DNA of 64,000 nt from NCBI RefSeq assembly GCF_011064595.1, contig NZ_JAALJI010000022.1, positions 62,001 to 126,000 on the forward strand, written 5' to 3'. The DNA comes from Paludisphaera soli (GTDB lineage Bacteria; Planctomycetota; Planctomycetia; Isosphaerales; Isosphaeraceae). A program made the position numbers and the translations under genes. A model generated the notes under the pieces. The model saw only the letters and a list, made by a program, of their open reading frames with translations, had not been told where the DNA came from and searched no databases. This document shows, in pieces, positions 2,885 through 64,000 of the stretch (its first letter is position 1; every line of letters starts with the position of its first letter).

Positions 2885-3070
2885 ATGGGCGACCGCGTTG
2901 TCTCGAACGGCCACGGCGAGCGGGCGAAGTCGCCCGCCGTGGGGGATGTCCTGGGCCTGGACCAGGTCCGAGAGGCGGTGCGCGGGATCCGCTTCGGCGA
3001 GGTCCGCGTGGTGATCCAGGACGGCCTGATCGTGCAGATCGACCGGCTGGAGAAGCAGCGCTTCCGTTGA
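2885..3070 (+). CDS. DUF2292 (YezD-like) small protein
   Basis: A 61-residue protein whose C-terminal half (VREAVRGIRFGEVRVVIQ, then DGLIVQIDRLEKQRFR) fits DUF2292, a compact alpha-beta family of unknown function whose genes are often found near sulfur or anion-transport genes. I chose the internal ATG at 2885 rather than the ATG at 2804 because GAGGTG lies 5 nt upstream and the family is about 55-65 residues long. It is divergent from the deaminase across about 227 bp. No sulfur gene is visible nearby. Confidence 0.75.
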   Translation: MGDRVVSNGHGERAKSPAVGDVLGLDQVREAVRGIRFGEVRVVIQDGLIVQIDRLEKQRFR

Positions 3071-3452
3071 GCGTCGGAAGCTGTCTCGCCGACTCGACCA
3101 CGAGAGGCGTGTCGAATCTTCCCCGTTGATGCGGGTCGACGACCGGTCGCACCGGAATCGGCCCCCCGGATCCCGGAGGATGGCATGTCTCGTTCCCCGA
3201 CCCCGCCCCCAAGGCCCGCGATCGCCAGGATCTTGAGCGCCCGTCTCGCACCGACGACGACGTCGGCCCGTCGCTGTCCGGGTCACGGACGGCCCTGAGA
3301 CTCGCCCCATCCATCGGCAACGATCCCGTCAGCCCGCTTCGCCGGACGAGTCCGCGCGCCCGAGCTTCCTCCTGCGCGGTCCCCGCCGAGGCGGACGCCC
3401 CCGAATCACGAGCGCCCGAGGTCGGGCGGTTCATCCCCAAGGATACGTTCTC
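3071..3452. other. Gene-free stretch before the DUF1549 gene
   Basis: About 380 bp with no reading frame that shows coding character. A 37-codon frame begins at an ATG near 3185 but has no recognisable motif. The 3' part has CCCCAAGGATACG just ahead of the 3453 ATG, which supplies a plausible ribosome binding site. I see no convincing promoter or hairpin. Confidence 0.5.
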
Positions 3453-6086
3453 ATGTCGATTCGTCATCTACAATTTCCCGCCGCCGCCCTCGCCCTGCTG
3501 GGCGTCGGGGCGGCCCGAGGCGGCGACCCGGCGGCCGCGACGCCGTCGTCCCCCGACGGAGCCAAGGTCGAGTTCTTCGAGAAGAAGATCCGCCCGCTGC
3601 TCGTCGCCGAGTGCTTCAACTGCCACTCGGCGAACACCAAGGCCGCGAGCGGCCTGCGGGTCGACGACCGCAACGGCCTGCTCAACGGCGGAGACCGGGG
3701 CGAGGCTGTCGTGCCGGGCAAGCCCGAGGAGAGCCTGCTCTTGCAGTCGGTGGCCCACCTCGAAGACGCGCCCAAGATGCCGCCCAAGAAAAAGCTCACC
3801 GAGGAGCAGGTCGCCGACCTCACGCGCTGGGTCGCCGATGGCGCCGCCTGGCCGGCCGAGGCCGTGGCCGCCTCGCAAAGCACGCCCGACGAGAAGTACG
3901 CCAAGCTGCGAGCCGAGCACTGGGCCTGGCAGCCGCTGAAGGCCACGGCCGTCCCCGAGGTCCGCGACGCCTCGTGGCCGCGCGGCGACGTCGACCGTCA
4001 CATCCTGGCGAAGCTGGAGCAGCAGGGCCTTACGCCTGTGGGCGATGCCGACAAGACGACGCTGATCCGCCGGGTCACGTTCGACCTGACCGGCCTGCCG
4101 CCGACGCCCGAGCAGATCGCGGCGTTCGCGGCCGACGACGCGGTCGACGCCCTCGCCCGGGTGGTCGACCGCCTGCTGGCCTCGCCCGCCTTCGGCGAGC
4201 ATTGGGGTCGCCACTGGCTGGACGTCGCCCGCTACGCCGACTCGACCGGTGCCTCGCGGAACCTGCCGTATCCCCACGCCTGGCGGTATCGCGACTACGT
4301 CGTCGACGCCTTCAACAAGGACAAGCCGTTCGACCAGTTCATCCGCGAGCAGGTCGCCGGCGACCTGCTGCCGGCGTCGTCGCAGGCCGAGAAGGACGAG
4401 CACGCCGTCGCCACCGGCTTCCTCGCGATCGGCCAGAAGGACGTCAACCAGCGCTTCAAGGTCCGGTTCGTCATGGACAACGTCGACGAGCAGATCGACG
4501 CGGTGACGCGCGGGTTCCTCGGCGTCACGGCGAGCTGCGCCCGCTGCCACGACCACAAGTTCGACCCCATTCCGACGAAGGATTACTACGCCCTCGCCGG
4601 CATCTTCCGCAGCACCGACCTCTGCGCCGGCGTCCGCAACAAGATGGGGGGCGGCGGCCTCGACTACTACGACTCCGCCATGCTCGTCCCCCTGGGCGAG
4701 ACGGCCGAGAAGAAGGACGACCCGGCGCTGGCCGAGAAGGTCGCCGCCGCGACGAAGGCCTTCGAGGAGGCCCGCAAGGAGTTCCAGAAGATTCGCGGCA
4801 CGCCCGAGGGGCTGGAGGTCCAGCCCAACGGCCGGCCTCGGCAGTTCCAGTTCCGCCAGAAGATGGTCAAGCTCCAGAACGAGCTGCTGGAGCTGACCGA
4901 CCCGGCCGTCACGGGCCAGGTCGCGCTCGGCGTCCGCGACTCGAAGGAGATCGCCGACACCGAGGTCCGCATCCGGGGCGAGGCCGAGAAGCTCGGCCCG
5001 GTCGTCCCTCGCGGGGTCCTGGGATTGGTCCCGATCAAGGCCCCGGAGATCCCGTCGAACCAGAGCGGGCGGCTGGAGCTGGCGGAGTGGATCACCAGCC
5101 CGGAGAACCCGCTGACGTCCCGGGTGTTCGTCAATCGCGCGTGGCGGCACCTGTTCGGCCGGGGGATCGTCAAGTCGGTCGACAACTTCGGCGTCAACGG
5201 CGACGTCCCGTCGCATCCCGAGCTGCTCGACCACCTGGCGGCGAAGTTCGTCGCCGACGGCTGGTCGGTGAAGGCTCTGGTGCGGGGCCTCGTCCTCTCG
5301 CGGGCCTACGCCCTCTCGTCCGAGACGCGCGAGCCGAACGTCGAGGCCGACCCGGCCAACCGCCTGGTCTGGCGGCACTCCCCGAGGCGGTTGACCGGCG
5401 AGGAGATCCGCGACGCCACGCTCGCCGCCGCCGGCACGCTCGACCCGGCCCGGCCCGAGGCTTCTCCCGCGAAGGCGCTCAAGGTCATGGAGCTGCCGAA
5501 CAACGGCCCGGTCGCCCGGGAGCTGCTGGAGAAGGCCAACGCCAGCCCCTCGCGAAGCGTCTACCTCCCCCTGCTCCGCGGCCTGACGCCGACCGCGCTG
5601 GAGGTCTTCGATTTCGCCGAGCAAGGGACGGTCACGGGCGACCGCGACACGACGACCGTCGCCACGCAGGCCCTGTATTTCCTCAACGACTCGCTCGTCC
5701 GTCGCGAGTCGCTGAAGCTGGCCGAACGCCTCCTCGCCCGGGCCGATCTGGACGACGCGGCCCGCGTCGACCAGGCCTACCGCCTGACCCTGGGACGATC
5801 GCCCACGCCGGCCGAGGCCGATCGCGGCCGCGACTTCCTGGACGGCTACGAGGCCCTCGCGGCCGCCGAACCGGAACCCGAGGCCGAGTCGGAGCCCACA
5901 CCCGCCCCCGCCGTCGCGGCGACCGACGCCAAGACGCCGGCGCAAGTGATCGACCCGGACCAGGTGATCCCGGTCGACACGCCGCTCCGCGAGGAGGTCA
6001 TCCGTCCCTCCTCCCCCCGCGCCGCCGCCTGGGCCGGCTTCTGCCAGGCCCTGATCGGCTCCGCCGAATTCCGCTACGTGCGCTGA
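3453..6086 (+). CDS. PSCyt1-DUF1549-DUF1553 planctomycete cytochrome c-type protein
   Basis: An 877-residue exported protein with the standard planctomycete architecture. A signal peptide (residues 1-23) precedes a PSCyt1 cytochrome domain with heme motif C54-F-N-C57-H58. DUF1549 covers roughly residues 150-390 and contains a second CxxCH (C362-A-R-C365-H366) followed by DHKFDPIP. DUF1553 runs from about residue 540 to 770 (FVNRAWRHLFGRGIV, LVLSRAYALSS). The C-terminus has an acidic Pro/Glu/Ala linker before the final segment. These proteins are very numerous in planctomycetes and usually paired with DUF1501 proteins, as here. A role in extracellular polysaccharide oxidation or catabolism has been suggested but the function is not established. 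Confidence 0.95.
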   Translation: MSIRHLQFPAAALALLGVGAARGGDPAAATPSSPDGAKVEFFEKKIRPLLVAECFNCHSANTKAASGLRVDDRNGLLNGGDRGEAVVPGKPEESLLLQSVAHLEDAPKMPPKKKLTEEQVADLTRWVADGAAWPAEAVAASQSTPDEKYAKLRAEHWAWQPLKATAVPEVRDASWPRGDVDRHILAKLEQQGLTPVGDADKTTLIRRVTFDLTGLPPTPEQIAAFAADDAVDALARVVDRLLASPAFGEHWGRHWLDVARYADSTGASRNLPYPHAWRYRDYVVDAFNKDKPFDQFIREQVAGDLLPASSQAEKDEHAVATGFLAIGQKDVNQRFKVRFVMDNVDEQIDAVTRGFLGVTASCARCHDHKFDPIPTKDYYALAGIFRSTDLCAGVRNKMGGGGLDYYDSAMLVPLGETAEKKDDPALAEKVAAATKAFEEARKEFQKIRGTPEGLEVQPNGRPRQFQFRQKMVKLQNELLELTDPAVTGQVALGVRDSKEIADTEVRIRGEAEKLGPVVPRGVLGLVPIKAPEIPSNQSGRLELAEWITSPENPLTSRVFVNRAWRHLFGRGIVKSVDNFGVNGDVPSHPELLDHLAAKFVADGWSVKALVRGLVLSRAYALSSETREPNVEADPANRLVWRHSPRRLTGEEIRDATLAAAGTLDPARPEASPAKALKVMELPNNGPVARELLEKANASPSRSVYLPLLRGLTPTALEVFDFAEQGTVTGDRDTTTVATQALYFLNDSLVRRESLKLAERLLARADLDDAARVDQAYRLTLGRSPTPAEADRGRDFLDGYEALAAAEPEPEAESEPTPAPAVAATDAKTPAQVIDPDQVIPVDTPLREEVIRPSSPRAAAWAGFCQALIGSAEFRYVR

Positions 6087-6103
6087 GCCTCAACCCTCGA
6101 CCC

Positions 6104-6345
6104 CTTCCCCCCTCGCGGGGGAAGGCGGCCCGAAGGGCCGGATGAGGGGGAAGACGAGCACGAAAACCGTCCGGAGACATCAGTCGGGCCGGCCGTCGCC
6201 AATCGTCCTTCCCCCCTCGTGGGGGAAGGTGGCCGAAGGCCGGATGAGGGGGGCGCCACCAAAGGCCGTCGCTCTCTCGCGATGTCCGCCTTGATGATCC
6301 CCCTCATCGACAGCTCCGCGGTCCTTCCTCCACCAGGGGTAAGGG
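6104..6345. repeat. Palindromic interspersed repeat, copy 1 (three-module form)
   Basis: Starts 18 bp after the DUF1549 stop. Left arm is CTTCCCCCCTCGCGGGGGAAG followed by GGCGGCCCGAAGGGCCGGA and TGAGGGGG. A second left-arm-like module (CCTCGTGGGGGAAGGTGGCC) begins near 6210. The right end (CCCCCTCATC ... CACCAGGGG) is the reverse complement type of the left arm but is degraded, with the GGCCC core replaced. The spacer holds GACGAGCACGAAAACCGTC and GGCCGTCGCC tracts shared with the other copies at 45708, 52265, 56785 and 61986. The 317 bp gap between 6086 and 6404 is mostly this element. Confidence 0.85.
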
Positions 6346-6403
6346 ATGAGGGCGCGAACGCCGAATTCATTGAGACAACGAAATTATCCACAGGATTTCA
6401 CAA

Positions 6404-7801
6404 ATGCCCAGGTTCCCCGATCTCCCAATCGTCGATTCGCTTTCCCGCCGCCAGGTCCTCAAGAACGCCGGCACCGGCTTCGGGATGCTGGCCCTGGCCG
6501 GCCTGCTGGGCGAGGCCGCCCCGAAGGTCCGCGGCGGCGACGCGGCGGCCCCCGGGCCCGGGCCGCTCGCGCCGAAGGCCCCGCACTTCCCGGCGAAGGC
6601 CAAGCGGATCATCTTCCTGTTCATGAACGGGGCGATGTCGCAGATGGACACCTTCGACTACAAGCCCCAACTCCAGAAGGACGACGGCAAGGTCGGCCCG
6701 GGGGGCGGCACGCTGACCGGATCGAAGTTCAAGTTCGCGCAGCACGGCCAGACCGGGACCTGGGTCTCGGAGCTGTACCCGAACGTCGCCCGCCACGTCG
6801 ACAAGCTCTGCTTCATCCGGGGGCTGCACACCGACACGCCGGCGCACCCGGAGGCCGTCATCCAGCTCCACACCGGCGCGGCGCTGGCGTCCCTGACGCG
6901 GCCGTCGCTCGGCGCGTGGCTGCTCTACGGCCTGGGGACGGAGAATCAGGACGTGCCGGGCTACGTCACGATCAACCCGCCGGCGAACTTCGGCGGCGCG
7001 GTGAACTACGGCAGCTCGTTCCTGCCGGCCCACTTCCAGGGGACGCGGATCAGCGACGTCGGCCACCTGCCCAACATCAAGGCGCACGCCGCCTCGTCGC
7101 TCCAGCGCCGGCAGATCGACCTCGTCCAGGCCATGAACCGCGACCTCGGCGCGACGCCAGGCGCGCCGGACCAGCTCGACGGCGTGATCGCGTCGTACGA
7201 GCTGGCGTTCAAGATGCAGGGGAAGGTCCCCGAGCTGCTCGACTTCTCGGACGAGCCGCAGTCGGTCCTCGACGCCTACGGCGTGCAGCCCGGCCCGGCG
7301 GGGAGCTTCGCCCGCCAGTGCCTCATGGCCCGCCGGCTCAGCGAGGCGGGCGTCCGGTTCGTCGAGGTCGCCCAGCCCGGCTGGGACCACCACACGAACC
7401 TGCACAACGGCCTCATCAACAACGCCAAGGCCACCGACCAGGCCACGGCCGCCCTTCTCGCCGACCTGGAACAGCGCGGGCTCCTGGAAGAGACTCTCGT
7501 CCTGTTCGGCAGCGAGTTCGGCCGCCAGCCGACGAGCCAGGGGGCCGACGGCCGCGACCACAACATCACCGGCTACCCGATGTGGCTCGCCGGCGCGGGG
7601 GTCAAGCCGGGCTTCTCCTACGGCGCGACCGACGAGTACGGTCTCAACGCCGTCGAGGGCCGAATGCACACCAACGACCTGCACGCGACCCTGCTGGCCC
7701 TGATGGGCCTCGACCACACGAAGCTCACCTACCGCTACGCCGGGCGGGACTTCCGCCTGACCGACGTCGCCGGCCAGGTCGCCACCGAGATCTTCGCCTG
7801 A
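6404..7801 (+). CDS. DUF1501 domain protein, Tat-exported
   Basis: A 465-residue DUF1501 (sulfatase/alkaline phosphatase-superfamily-like) protein. A twin-arginine signal (LSRRQVLKNAGTGFGMLALAGLLG) spans residues 13-36. The core shows IIFLFMNGAMSQMDTFDYKP near residues 68-86, a family signature, and late FGSEFGRQPTSQG and GRDHNITGYPMWLAG motifs that correspond to the metal-binding strands of the alkaline phosphatase fold. It follows the DUF1549 protein in the usual pairing, so the two are likely co-expressed despite the intervening repeat. Substrate is unknown. Start ATG sits after CACAGGATTTCACAA, giving AGGA as binding site. Confidence 0.95.
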   Translation: MPRFPDLPIVDSLSRRQVLKNAGTGFGMLALAGLLGEAAPKVRGGDAAAPGPGPLAPKAPHFPAKAKRIIFLFMNGAMSQMDTFDYKPQLQKDDGKVGPGGGTLTGSKFKFAQHGQTGTWVSELYPNVARHVDKLCFIRGLHTDTPAHPEAVIQLHTGAALASLTRPSLGAWLLYGLGTENQDVPGYVTINPPANFGGAVNYGSSFLPAHFQGTRISDVGHLPNIKAHAASSLQRRQIDLVQAMNRDLGATPGAPDQLDGVIASYELAFKMQGKVPELLDFSDEPQSVLDAYGVQPGPAGSFARQCLMARRLSEAGVRFVEVAQPGWDHHTNLHNGLINNAKATDQATAALLADLEQRGLLEETLVLFGSEFGRQPTSQGADGRDHNITGYPMWLAGAGVKPGFSYGATDEYGLNAVEGRMHTNDLHATLLALMGLDHTKLTYRYAGRDFRLTDVAGQVATEIFA

Positions 7802-59571: not shown

Positions 59572-61713
59572 TCAAAGCGCCCTCCCCCGCTCGACCTTCA
59601 TCCAACGGTCGGTCGTCAGGTTCAGGGCGCCGCCGCTGTCCTGGTAGGCGTACACGGCGATGTAGGCGTCGGCCGCGACCTCCGCCGCGGTGAACTCGAT
59701 CTCCACGTCGAAGTCGCGGGTGGCCGCAAATCCGACGGGAGGCTTGAGGGTCAGGACCTTCTGGATCGTCTCGTTCTTCCGCACCTGGATGTAGCGGTCG
59801 CCGGCACCGTCGGCTGCCCATGCGACCATGCCCCGCACCCGATACACGCCGGGACGCCTGGGATAGACTCGTTCCTCGTCGGAGGAGGCGTCGTGCATCG
59901 CCATCGTGTCTTCGACTTCGCCGTTGAACTCGACGGCGACGGTCGCGCCGGAGGCCGCCGACGGGGCGTCGTCCGCCGTGACGTGGCACACGTCCCGGTG
60001 GAAGCCGAACTCCCGCGCGGCCAGGTGGCCGATGCTCTCGCAATCGTCATGGAGCGTGAGCGGACGACGGGACGTCGGATTGAACGCGAAGCTCGTCCCG
60101 TCCTCCTTGTGGGCGAGGAAGCCGTATTGCATCTTCGGGGGTAGGGAGACGAACGGGCGGGTGATGCGCCTGGGAAGGCCGCCGGACCACGTGACGGAGG
60201 TCGAGCCGTTGGTCAGCGTGATCGTCCTGACCTCTTTCGAGGTCGTGTGCCATTCGTCCGCGTAATCGCCGCTCGCGTCCCCTTCCGGGCGGCCGCTGGC
60301 CGCCGTCGCGGAGTCGTCGTTGTTGTCGGCGGAGAACGTCGCGGTGTAGGTCCCCGTGTAGCCGGTCCACGGGAACTGCATCGTCGCCCCGGTGGCGCCC
60401 GGCCCCGGCCAGGCCGGCGAGGCGTCCGGGTTCTTCGGATCGTACATGTCGTCGCCGAGCAGGTAGAAACCCTGCCGGTCGATGGCGCGGCAGGCGTCGA
60501 GCGTCACGCCCTCCAGGCCGTCGTCGTTGTTGGCGAACAGCAGCCAGCCGGCGTGGGCGTCTTGTTTATAGTGGGGACCGGGGTCGCCGGCGTCGATGTG
60601 GATGTCGTTGTAGCCGGGGTTGATCGCCGTGCAGCCGACGAACAGACAATCCCCGTGCTTCCACAGGTCGCTGTGCCCGCCCACGATGAAGCCGCTCATG
60701 CCGCAATTCTCGGCCGTCACGCCGACCACCTTATAGTCTTGCCCGGCCCCGGCGAGCTTGAGGCCCACGCTCCCGCAGTTGAAGATATGCCCGCCGAGGA
60801 AAGTGACCTTCTTGTTGCTCCAGTTCCCCCCGCCGCCGCTGAAATCGACGCCCTGATCCACGTTGGAGACCCGGGGGTTGATGAGGGTCACGGCGTCGTT
60901 GCCGCCTCCGGCGATCCCGCGCGTCCGCATGTTCGGATAGGCTTTAACCGTCGATCCGTGATAGTCGCGAGGTTTGAAGCCCGACGCGGTGTAATAAGTG
61001 CCGTTGCCGAGCAGGTCGCGGACGACGAGGTTGGAGAAGGTGCAGTTGAAGCAATCCTGGATGCGGACGCCTTCCACCACGTCGTCGACCACGAGAAAGC
61101 GGGGATCGACCGGATCGACGCTGGAGTCGTGGAATAGGCCGTCGTGGACGTAGACGTCCTCGAAAACGCTGTCCTTGCAGCCGAGGAAGTTGGCGTAGGC
61201 CAGCATGCCCTGGCCGGTCAGCTCGACGTTCCTGACCCGGTGGCCCGACCCGCCCTGAATGTTGAGCCCTCGCGAACCTTCGCGGGAGCCGACGTTCGGG
61301 CTGTCGCCGGTGTGGATGTAGAGGCCGTCGATGCGGACCTGCTCGCAGTCCCGGAAGCGGAGGGTCTGGCTGTCCGGGGCCGGCGCGATGTTCTTGAGAC
61401 GCAGGCGCCTGATCCAGGGGCGCTTGACGCCGGTGTACTGGATGTCGTCACCGGAGCCGTAAAGCCTGTCGCCGCCGTCGACATATCCGCCGGCGGCGAT
61501 GGCCGCGTCGATCGCGGCCATGACGGCGGCGCGATCATTGGCGACGCCGTCGCCGGTCGCGCCATAGTTCATCGGGCTGAAGGCCGAGCCGGCGCCGAGA
61601 TCGGAAGCGGCCGCGTCCGGTACCCTGGCCGCGGCCTGCGGGGCCTGCGCCTGGAGCAGGGTCAGCGACACGGCGAGGCAGGCGAACAGCGTCGCGACAG
61701 CAAAGGCGCGCAT
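59572..61713 (-). CDS. Secreted right-handed beta-helix protein (pectate-lyase-3 like)
   Basis: A 713-residue exoprotein. Signal peptide at residues 1-24 (FAVATLFACLAVSLTLLQAQ). The motif SPMNYGATGDGVANDRAAVM near residues 47-66 is the pectate_lyase_3 (GA-x-GDG) start of a parallel beta-helix. Repeated short strands with Gly/Asn turns follow (CFNCTFSNLVVRDLLGNGTY; CTAINPGYNDIHIDAGDPGP). The C-terminal part contains beta-sandwich-like regions (TGTYTATFSADNNDDSATAA). Likely a polysaccharide-binding or lyase-like surface protein. The start at 61713 is the ATG directly before the signal peptide, with GGAG upstream. Confidence 0.85.
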   Translation of the reverse strand: MRAFAVATLFACLAVSLTLLQAQAPQAAARVPDAAASDLGAGSAFSPMNYGATGDGVANDRAAVMAAIDAAIAAGGYVDGGDRLYGSGDDIQYTGVKRPWIRRLRLKNIAPAPDSQTLRFRDCEQVRIDGLYIHTGDSPNVGSREGSRGLNIQGGSGHRVRNVELTGQGMLAYANFLGCKDSVFEDVYVHDGLFHDSSVDPVDPRFLVVDDVVEGVRIQDCFNCTFSNLVVRDLLGNGTYYTASGFKPRDYHGSTVKAYPNMRTRGIAGGGNDAVTLINPRVSNVDQGVDFSGGGGNWSNKKVTFLGGHIFNCGSVGLKLAGAGQDYKVVGVTAENCGMSGFIVGGHSDLWKHGDCLFVGCTAINPGYNDIHIDAGDPGPHYKQDAHAGWLLFANNDDGLEGVTLDACRAIDRQGFYLLGDDMYDPKNPDASPAWPGPGATGATMQFPWTGYTGTYTATFSADNNDDSATAASGRPEGDASGDYADEWHTTSKEVRTITLTNGSTSVTWSGGLPRRITRPFVSLPPKMQYGFLAHKEDGTSFAFNPTSRRPLTLHDDCESIGHLAAREFGFHRDVCHVTADDAPSAASGATVAVEFNGEVEDTMAMHDASSDEERVYPRRPGVYRVRGMVAWAADGAGDRYIQVRKNETIQKVLTLKPPVGFAATRDFDVEIEFTAAEVAADAYIAVYAYQDSGGALNLTTDRWMKVERGRAL

Positions 61714-61985
61714 GGCACTCCAACCTTTCCAGCAGTGACCCATCCGTCCAGGATGCCCCATCGGCAGAGCGGTGCCAGCGAAAGAGCTTGATGTCACGAA
61801 TCGAGACGGCGTTCGCCTCGCGTGCGACGCCGGTTACGGCATTTCCCGGATGGCTGTCGGCCTCGCCCCGGTCTCAGAACGCTGTATTGCACACGTGCCG
61901 AATCCCCCCTGTCCAGTGGGTAAGCGGAGAAACGGGCGCGTCCGGCTGGCCGGGGAAGTGGCAAGTCGGTCCGTCGCCGATCGTC

Positions 61986-62177: not shown

Positions 62178-63944
62178 TCACCTCGCGGCCGGCGCGTCGG
62201 CGTCGTCGATCGTCAGCATGACGCCCGGGAAATGCTCCCGGGCCCAGGTGATCAGCCTGCGGACGGCGGCGAGCCGATGCTTCGATTGCAGGACGCCCGG
62301 AGCTGTCGCCTCTTTCAGTCGTTGCATCTCGGCCTGCTCCTTCTCGGCCTCCAAAAGTTGCCGCCGAGATTCGAAATACAGTTGACTTTCGATTGATAGA
62401 CCGGCCGATGCAGCCGATTCACCGTTGCGATCGAGCCACTGGTCGAGCGCCCTGAAATACTTTTCCTTCTCCACCTCCTTCTGGCCTCGAAGTTCAGCGC
62501 TCTCCGCGACCTTCCCCCTGCTCTCTCGATAAGGAGGTCTCAGGAGTTCGCTTCGCTTCAAGGCCTCCCCATGCCGGTGCTCGGCGTCGTCGAGCACCTT
62601 CTGCCCCGCGGTGCTCCGCTCCGAAGCCTCGTCCTCCATCTCCCGCAGCCGGGCCACCAGCACGCGGGCCGGGGCGATGGCGTCCTCGCGGAGGCTCTGG
62701 GCCTGGAGTTCGGAGACCATGTCATGGTCCTTGCCCAGGTAGTCCTCGATGATCCGGAACTTCCGGTACGCGCTCACCAGCTGCGCCTCGATCTCGCGCA
62801 GGCTCCGGGCATCGGTCAATGCGAGGGCGGACGGCTTGAGGCCGATCGCCTCGCCGACGCCCTTCACGGAGGAGTCCGGGGGCGACGACGAAGACGACGC
62901 GGCGGGAGCGGCGGCGGCCGGCTTCGCCACCTGGTCGAGGAGTCGATCGAGCTTCTGCTCGACATCGGCCAGGCGGCCCTCGACATCGGCGGCCGGCGCG
63001 GCGGGCTTCTCGGGCTCGGGCGGGGCCTGCGCCGGGGGCTGGGGCCTGGGCGGGTCGTCCTGGACCCCGGGGGCGTCGAACGACCCGGCGACGGCCAGGG
63101 CCCCGGCGGTCAGGCCGAGGCAGGCGAAGGCGAACCCGAGCGGCTTCCACGGCGAACTCGACATGGCGATGACTCCCTGGGCCAGGGCCGCGGCGGGCCA
63201 CTGGGTGGTGGACGAGGACCAGAAGGCCGAAAGCCAGCCCGACAGCCCGGCGAACCGGCCGGCGGCGACCGTCGCCGCGACGAGCGACGGCGGGATGGAT
63301 GCGACCGTCAGATCCGCCCGCAGCAAGGCGAAGGCCGCGGAGGCGTCGAGCCCCCGGCGCGACAGGCGGTCGTGCAGGATCGAGCGCGCCCGGGCCATCC
63401 GGCTCCGCACCGTGCCGACCGGCCAGCCCAGCTCGGCCGCCGCCTGGTCGTGCGTCCGACCCTTCAGGTAGCAGAGGACGAGCGGGGCGCGGTACTTCTC
63501 GGGCAGTCGGGCCAGCTCCCGGTCCAGCGTCTCGATGGCGTCGTCGGGAGCGGGGGGCTCGACGGCCGCCACCGAGACGCCCTCGCGATCCCCCTCGCGG
63601 GCCCGGCGCTTGAGGAGGTCGGAGCGGGCCCGCATCGCGACGCGGTAGGCCACGCCGTAGAGCCAGCTCGCAAGGGCGTCGCCGTCGCGGAGGTCCCCCC
63701 CTTTGCGGACGAGGACCAGGAACGTCGCCTGGAACGCGTCCTCCACGTCGGCCGGGTCGCGCAGGTAGCGTCGGCAGAGGGCCAGCACGGGCGGGCCGTG
63801 ACGGTCCACGAGGGCCTCGAACGCCGACTCGTCCCGCTCGGCCCGATACCGATGCAGGAGCCGCGCATCCCCTCCCGGCGCGTCCACCCCGTCGCGGAGC
63901 AGCCGCTCGACCTCCCGACCCGCGCCTCGGTTTCCCCTCCTCAT
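62178..63944 (-). CDS. ECF RNA polymerase sigma factor with long C-terminal membrane/coiled-coil extension
   Basis: A 588-residue protein. The N-terminal 180 residues are an ECF sigma factor: region 2 (CRRYLRDPADVEDAFQATFL, SWLYGVAYRVAMRARSDLLK) and region 4 (LPEKYRAPLVLCYLKGRTHD, GWPVGTVRSRMARARSILHD). After a hydrophobic region there is one membrane segment (PLGFAFACLGLTAGALAVAG, about residues 268-287), a Pro-rich linker and about 250 residues of coiled-coil-like sequence (ERSTAGQKVLDDAEHRHGEA, FESRRQLLEAEKEQAEMQRL). The architecture fits planctomycete ECF groups whose extension replaces a separate anti-sigma factor. Start at 63944 has GGAGG upstream. Confidence 0.93.
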   Translation of the reverse strand: MRRGNRGAGREVERLLRDGVDAPGGDARLLHRYRAERDESAFEALVDRHGPPVLALCRRYLRDPADVEDAFQATFLVLVRKGGDLRDGDALASWLYGVAYRVAMRARSDLLKRRAREGDREGVSVAAVEPPAPDDAIETLDRELARLPEKYRAPLVLCYLKGRTHDQAAAELGWPVGTVRSRMARARSILHDRLSRRGLDASAAFALLRADLTVASIPPSLVAATVAAGRFAGLSGWLSAFWSSSTTQWPAAALAQGVIAMSSSPWKPLGFAFACLGLTAGALAVAGSFDAPGVQDDPPRPQPPAQAPPEPEKPAAPAADVEGRLADVEQKLDRLLDQVAKPAAAAPAASSSSSPPDSSVKGVGEAIGLKPSALALTDARSLREIEAQLVSAYRKFRIIEDYLGKDHDMVSELQAQSLREDAIAPARVLVARLREMEDEASERSTAGQKVLDDAEHRHGEALKRSELLRPPYRESRGKVAESAELRGQKEVEKEKYFRALDQWLDRNGESAASAGLSIESQLYFESRRQLLEAEKEQAEMQRLKEATAPGVLQSKHRLAAVRRLITWAREHFPGVMLTIDDADAPAAR

Positions 63945-64000
63945 CACCGCCCCTCCCCTTCCCTTCCCGGAGGTTACTGCAACGAGCCCCGCCCCCAATC

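Follow-up and report, generated by a model that had tools for sequence, protein, structure and literature searches.

A conserved putative internal start site in the gene of a predicted membrane-tethered ECF sigma factor from a planctomycete

We propose that an ECF sigma factor gene in the window, the 64,000-nucleotide stretch of Paludisphaera soli DNA analyzed here, encodes a membrane-tethered one-component sigma factor and most likely makes two proteins from a single reading frame. One would be the tethered sigma factor itself, and the other a sigma-less product that would begin at Met261 and carry the exported or membrane-anchored C-terminal domain. We put the probability of this reading at about 0.6. 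It builds on the computed order of the domains, on a hydrophobic segment conserved within a paralogue family, and on selection detected by computation at the internal start site. If the reading is true, the annotation of one protein per gene is incomplete for these sigma genes, and a conserved second start could account for the control of such switches where no partner gene exists.

The gene starts with ATG and encodes a protein of 588 residues (Table 1). An earlier note on this DNA had described it as an ECF sigma factor with a long extension after region 4, and that description is borne out. Pfam recognizes both sigma regions (r2 and r4_2), the protein scores above the cut-off of the NCBIfam sigma70-ECF superfamily model, E. 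coli sigmaE and other sigma factors are the best PDB matches in a Foldseek search with the AlphaFold2 model, and nearly 400 residues follow region 4. Sigma-family matches number 35 in the window genome, 54 in a second genome of the same family (G014), and 65 in a genome of another family (G047). From the 35 matches of the window genome, we took as its own set the 21 members found at E <1e-33 (L001-L021, the window protein included). Cys57 of region 2 and Cys158 of region 4 are each kept in 20 of these 21 members; by eye, no matching pair of cysteines is present in the nine short ECFs of the same genome (L022-L030), L023 having the first cysteine alone. The rows dropped were L059 and L061, which duplicate L032 and L051, and L056, which the sigma pattern failed to recover. 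Between region 4 and the predicted membrane segment, residues 196-262 share 49-67% identity with ten relatives of the window clade. The AlphaFold2 pLDDT is below 50 across residues 210-302, the linker included, and the model therefore gives nothing on auto-inhibition.

Table 1. Features of the sigma factor gene and its product, with coordinates in the window
Feature	Position	Strand	Basis or detail
Full-length ECF sigma factor ORF	62178..63944	-	588 aa
Sigma region 2, residues 45-107, conserved Cys57	63624..63812	-	Pfam PF04542 Sigma70_r2
Sigma region 4, residues 139-188, conserved Cys158	63381..63530	-	Pfam PF08281 Sigma70_r4_2
Juxtamembrane linker, residues 196-260	63165..63359	-	Relatives' identity and model pLDDT
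Putative internal Shine-Dalgarno AGGGAG, 8 nt before internal ATG	63173..63178	-	
Putative in-frame ORF inside the gene, 328 aa beginning at Met261, with an N terminus resembling a signal peptide or anchor, then the C-terminal domain	62178..63164	-	
Predicted membrane segment, residues 269-287	63084..63140	-	Kyte-Doolittle peak 1.89
Short amphipathic helix, residues 321-340, coiled-coil-like, after Pro/Ala-rich linker	62925..62984	-	
Helical C-terminal domain, residues 372-571	62232..62831	-	AlphaFold2, tail searches
ECF-like promoter block of the sigma gene, GAAACC...CTCGTTGCAGTAAC	63973..64000, past window edge (G000:C113:125973-126008)	-	

A recurring arrangement stands immediately before the membrane segment in these genes: the Shine-Dalgarno (SD)-like sequence gaAGGAGt, a gap of usually 11 nt, an in-frame ATG, a basic residue, and a hydrophobic stretch. 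The window gene has its own version of it at Met261, with AGGGAG and a gap of 8 nt. Codon choice is one sign that the nucleotides themselves are conserved. The glycine of the motif is encoded by GGA in 44 of 49 genes, compared with 300 of 2489 glycine codons (12%) at other positions of these genes (Fisher p 5e-34, a value computed over related genes that are not independent), and in 16 other glycine columns GGA accounts for 0-29%. The glutamate that precedes the motif glycine (Glu256) is encoded by GAA in 15 of 16. Within the window genome alone, the motif glycine is GGA in 15 of 16 cases against 6.6% (p 3e-17); the one deviation comes from L016, where the wrong site was picked and the membrane-proximal site does have GGA.

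The SD-like sequence and the ATG also occur together far beyond what the protein sequence would produce. We scored a GGAG located 4-13 nt before an in-frame ATG within residues 206-300 and used synonymous shuffles as the null. The combination is present in 49 of 55 genes, against a null of 10.0 (sd 2.8) and a maximum of 18 among 500 shuffle sets, and in 18 of 21 genes of the window genome, against 3.4. Three members (L004, L008, and L012) have lost the peptide motif, yet another SD lies 7-8 nt before an ATG in each. The mRNA around the internal ATG is less folded than synonymous variants of it (z +0.70 and p 2e-7, SD codons excluded), whereas a control window gives z +0.14, which is not significant. 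The anti-SD pairing energy differs weakly from that of synonymous shuffles (mean z -0.44), in our view because GGG codons also pair, and codon identity was therefore used as the test. L013 and L021 are without an internal site, and that of L010 is weak. Judged by codon choice, joint occurrence, substitution, and mRNA folding, the putative internal SD and its ATG are selected as nucleotides. A product initiated at Met261 would begin like a signal peptide or membrane anchor and would lack the sigma part. Judged by titles and the openings of abstracts in the open-licence literature searched, we found no description of a conserved internal start in such sigma genes.

The 55 genes are the set in which the motif was discovered, and G014 is the only held-out genome within the same family. 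There, GGAG with an in-frame ATG occurs in 16 of 27 genes, against a null of 5.4 (sd 1.9) and a maximum of 11 among 500 shuffle sets, these being 27 of 28 candidates after two of the 30 loci were set aside as belonging to the discovery set; the one left out, L191, is short. When G014 sites were chosen by the peptide motif alone, the glycine codon was GGA in 15 of 19 and GGG in the others, with no GGC or GGT. In G047, the combination is found in 16 of 30 genes (null 4.8, sd 1.7), and EV sometimes takes the place of GV, GGAGT becoming GAGGT. A mixed set from two other families, which partly overlaps the G047 set, gives 11 of 22 (null 3.9), no ORF having been recovered at 8 of its 30 loci. GGAG is absent from 11 of the 27 G014 genes and from 14 of the 30 G047 genes. 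Overall, the internal site is commonest near the window gene and is present in roughly half of the more distant members. A control stretch in the sigma part (residues 26-200) scores 9 of 55 against a null of 4.6 (sd 1.8), a mild excess.

An SD-like sequence within a gene may also act without initiating translation. Only the full-length tethered sigma factor would then be made, and the element would slow the ribosome before the membrane segment and so aid targeting or insertion, an alternative that we consider unlikely while giving it a real share of the probability. The spacing speaks for it. GGAG lies 11 nt before the ATG in 39 of 49 genes and 8 or 11 nt before it in 45 of 49, as measured by a picker that took the first qualifying ATG, which in L016, L040, and L047 is not the membrane-adjacent one. 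The usual optimum for the distance between an SD sequence and its ATG is shorter than 11 nt, which counts against use of the internal start, and where these genes are guessed to truly begin the GGAG spacing is mostly 5-14 nt, most often 5-9. One account of E. coli membrane-protein genes ties SD-like elements to pauses and, in its scoring, looks for them 8-11 nt before the codon at which the ribosome pauses (PMC4359368). A pause, however, needs no ATG, yet a methionine stands at the aligned column in 48 of 54 relatives. Nor would pausing explain the signal-peptide-like start, in which the last basic residue falls at position 7 counted from the methionine in 34 of 53 sequences. The element is also missing from kinase genes of the same genome that encode a membrane segment (0 of 16 against a null of 1.6; of 30 loci, four yielded no ORF and 10 no transmembrane segment), and the G014 genes keep a hydrophobic segment at a peak of at least 1.5 in 27 of 27, including the members that lack GGAG.

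The domain that both products would share is mostly helical in the window clade according to AlphaFold2. Its identity to ten clade relatives is 28-72% at residues 556-580 and 21-47% at residues 371-555. Searches of the domain against PDB folds gave no match at E <=0.001 (best 0.12), and searches against PDB sequences gave none at E up to 1. Relatives of the tail are present in 5 of the 30 genomes searched, all of them within the genus and all in sigma-fused frames as judged by coordinates; no stand-alone gene for the domain was found in those 30 genomes. The coiled coil previously proposed for this extension holds in part: the pattern fits the helix at residues 321-340 (P 0.006 for the heptad moment) as well as a few further stretches, but not the domain as a whole. 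By eye, L006, L009, L015, and L018, which carry unrelated domains, have a helix of the same kind (EEKLDRLL type) at their C-terminal ends or close to them, and it is possibly a shared assembly helix.

The tails of the other members of the window genome are diverse. Pfam identifies DUF1559 in L006, L009, and L011, AhpC-TSA in L008, Poly_export in L012, and CarboxypepD_reg in L014, L016, and L017; STN matches in the tails of L003 and L005 are weak and below the cut-off, and the remaining tails have no clear Pfam match. DUF1559, AhpC-TSA, Poly_export, and CarboxypepD_reg are typical of the envelope or the outside of the cell, and these export-type domains therefore lend support to an inside-to-outside topology. 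In L007 (G000:C13:47282-51178), the frame changes after the membrane segment and the other frame continues, by eye, as an HlyD-like adaptor, which may reflect a sequencing error or a broken gene. The joining of unrelated domains at the same point, with signal-peptide-like starts, would suit a history in which a separate secreted-protein gene was fused to the sigma gene and the internal ATG is the disused remnant of its start; the lack of the internal site in part of the distant members would suit it as well. A disused site should decay, however, and the SD wobble bases are kept across genera and families, so we regard such a remnant as improbable.

The extension has one strong hydrophobic peak after region 4, at residues 269-287. 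A single membrane span and hence a probable tether had been read from the window sequence in the earlier note. The tether stands on the family, in which the segment is kept, but the window peak alone is near chance, since 283 of 5000 shuffles of the same Ala/Pro-rich tail reach its value of 1.89. A peak of at least 1.6 follows region 4 in 50 of 54 relatives, and one of at least 1.5 in all 21 members of the window genome, that of L021 beginning at residue 193, directly at the end of region 4. The segment is absent from eight of the nine short ECFs of this genome, the exception being L028. We therefore take it as a probable anchor because it is shared across the paralogue family and not because of the window peak. 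Charge gives a divided picture of the orientation: in 41 of 54 relatives the side before the segment carries the higher net charge, and counts of K and R agree with the predicted orientation in 13, point the other way in 29, and tie in 12. The placement of the sigma factor inside and the C-terminal domain outside is one that we infer. In a study of Tuwongella, Triton or SDS fractions contained five named ECFs, for which the account gives no membrane segments (PMC8567305), a result consistent with membrane association. Membrane tethering with an outward-facing domain, in a setting without a recognizable anti-sigma gene, is supported by the paralogue family.

The same data could be read as a hydrophobic segment that packs on the sigma core, with the extension serving as a cytoplasmic regulatory domain as in ECF41 and ECF42. 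The segment is rich in alanine and glycine and its hydrophobicity is marginal, so that shuffled tails can match the window peak, and the K/R counts oppose the predicted orientation in the 29 relatives noted above. Set against these points are the export-type domains in several extensions and the fractionation of ECFs of another planctomycete with Triton or SDS extracts (PMC8567305), and we give this arrangement little credence. Programmed +1 frameshifting, in which the internal SD would produce a truncated soluble sigma factor, was rejected as very improbable: 40 of 52 genes have a stop in the +1 frame somewhere from -4 to +14 codons relative to the ATG, but synonymous shuffles give 36.2 (sd 2.4), placing such stops near chance, and no conserved slippery site is evident in the internal sites inspected.

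Under the preferred reading, of a tethered sigma factor made together with a product from Met261, sigma regions 2 and 4 would lie in the cytoplasm, a single segment would cross the membrane, and the helical domain would be outside, so that its own tail would keep the sigma part at the membrane. Release or activation of the sigma part would follow a signal from outside, probably through intramembrane proteolysis as reported for IutY (PMC8999054). Matches to the M50 site-2-protease family occupy nine stretches of the window genome. The second product would be sigma-less, exported or membrane-anchored, and would have its C terminus in common with the long form. It may mix with the long form, as in one two-form endolysin (PMC9430671), or compete with it, and would in this way determine the amount of sigma held in each complex.

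The neighbours of the sigma gene are a divergent gene, a SUKH gene, a beta-helix gene, and an isochorismatase gene. That no anti-sigma gene is adjacent, as had been stated previously, agrees with the neighbours scanned (SUKH, beta-helix, and isochorismatase), in which Pfam recognizes no anti-sigma domain, but the divergent neighbour is conserved and cannot be typed. This gene (L074:5728-7425, + strand, past the window end) encodes a protein of ~550 residues that matches no Pfam family and has a hydrophobic stretch at its N terminus, and it keeps its place beside the sigma gene in G001, G005, G003, and the window genome, all of the genus. It does not stand beside the clade members L002, L032, and L034 and is therefore not an obligate partner. 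Of the two zf-HC2 sites in the window genome, one is next to the short ECF L030 and the other next to a kinase match. The former (G000:C13:73356-74105) is the sole zf-HC2 anti-sigma-like site found near an ECF gene, and in adjoining a short ECF it is unlike the tethered class. In G003, two clade sigma genes lie in tandem (L079, G003:C1:6270000-6280000, 3066-7264) where the window genome has one.

Upstream of the sigma gene is an ECF-like promoter block, GAAACC...CTCGTTGCAG. A corresponding block, GAAAYC followed by CTCGNTGCAGTARCCTC, is recognizable upstream of 11 of the 11 clade genes compared, altered in several of them (for example, to CTTGG in L035 and L055). With up to three mismatches allowed, the long block occurs at exactly two sites in the 7.97 Mb of the window genome, before both of its clade sigma genes. 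The presence of the block before the clade sigma genes therefore suggests that they are autoregulated. A shorter exact block gave four sites in three of six genomes of the genus; one of these matches, G005:C1:415031-415064, has no gene assigned and is a possible target or a chance occurrence.

The earlier note had further proposed that the factor is probably sensed or released directly and that the beta-helix exoprotein gene downstream may be its target. The tether and the outward domain are upheld by the paralogue family, but the beta-helix gene was rejected as a target. It is absent from between the sigma and isochorismatase genes in G001, G005, and G003, and the long promoter block occurs only before the two clade sigma genes; the block was not found before the beta-helix gene, although a shorter core could still exist elsewhere. 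Among the four syntenic loci, only that of the window genome has this gene (59572-61797, - strand) in that place, where it was either gained in the window genome or lost in the others.

We give an even chance to the broader view that planctomycete membrane sigma receptors form a large class in which many genes encode both the tethered factor and, from a conserved internal start, the sensor domain in free form, the relative amounts of these products tuning the sigma available and replacing a separate anti-sigma gene. In each of the planctomycete genomes searched, such sigma genes number in the tens. The regulation of fused ECFs of this kind is described as a largely open question (PMC8103513, PMC8999054), and a conserved internal start offers a concrete and easily tested handle on it.

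Fused, tethered ECF sigma factors are already a known kind. The ECF57 group is rich in planctomycete members. Similar to the window protein, ECF57 factors have a long C-terminal extension and a conserved cysteine in each of sigma2 and sigma4 (PMC8999054). Their extensions differ in the prevalence of WD40-like repeats, for which neither the window protein nor L002-L021 gives a Pfam match, and the passages on ECF57 in that account refer to no membrane segment and to no internal start (PMC8999054). The two cysteines match but WD40 was not found, and we therefore place the window sigma factor near, and not inside, ECF57. IutY of Pseudomonas putida (ECF243) is likewise a sigma factor fused to a membrane-bound C-terminal part, and it is given as the sole such ECF for which proteolytic release, by Prc and RseP, has been shown (PMC8999054). 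Its extension is a fused anti-sigma factor, however, whereas the window protein has no Pfam match to an anti-sigma domain at E up to 0.1. In Actinobacteria, the extensions of ECF48, ECF52, and ECF53 can reach 400 residues and include one to two membrane helices, and SCO4117, an example of these groups, combines a Pro-rich stretch with an outside domain in the manner of the window protein (PMC8999054). These groups belong to another phylum and carry a zinc-finger domain in the extension, unlike the window protein, whose extension has no Pfam match to a zinc finger. For the second product, the nearest parallel that we cite comes from phage endolysins, which are unrelated proteins and in which, in contrast to the sequence-based prediction made here, the second product has been shown by experiment: a single gene yields two polypeptides through an in-frame internal start and a common stop codon, and one such two-form endolysin assembles 1:5 (PMC9430671).
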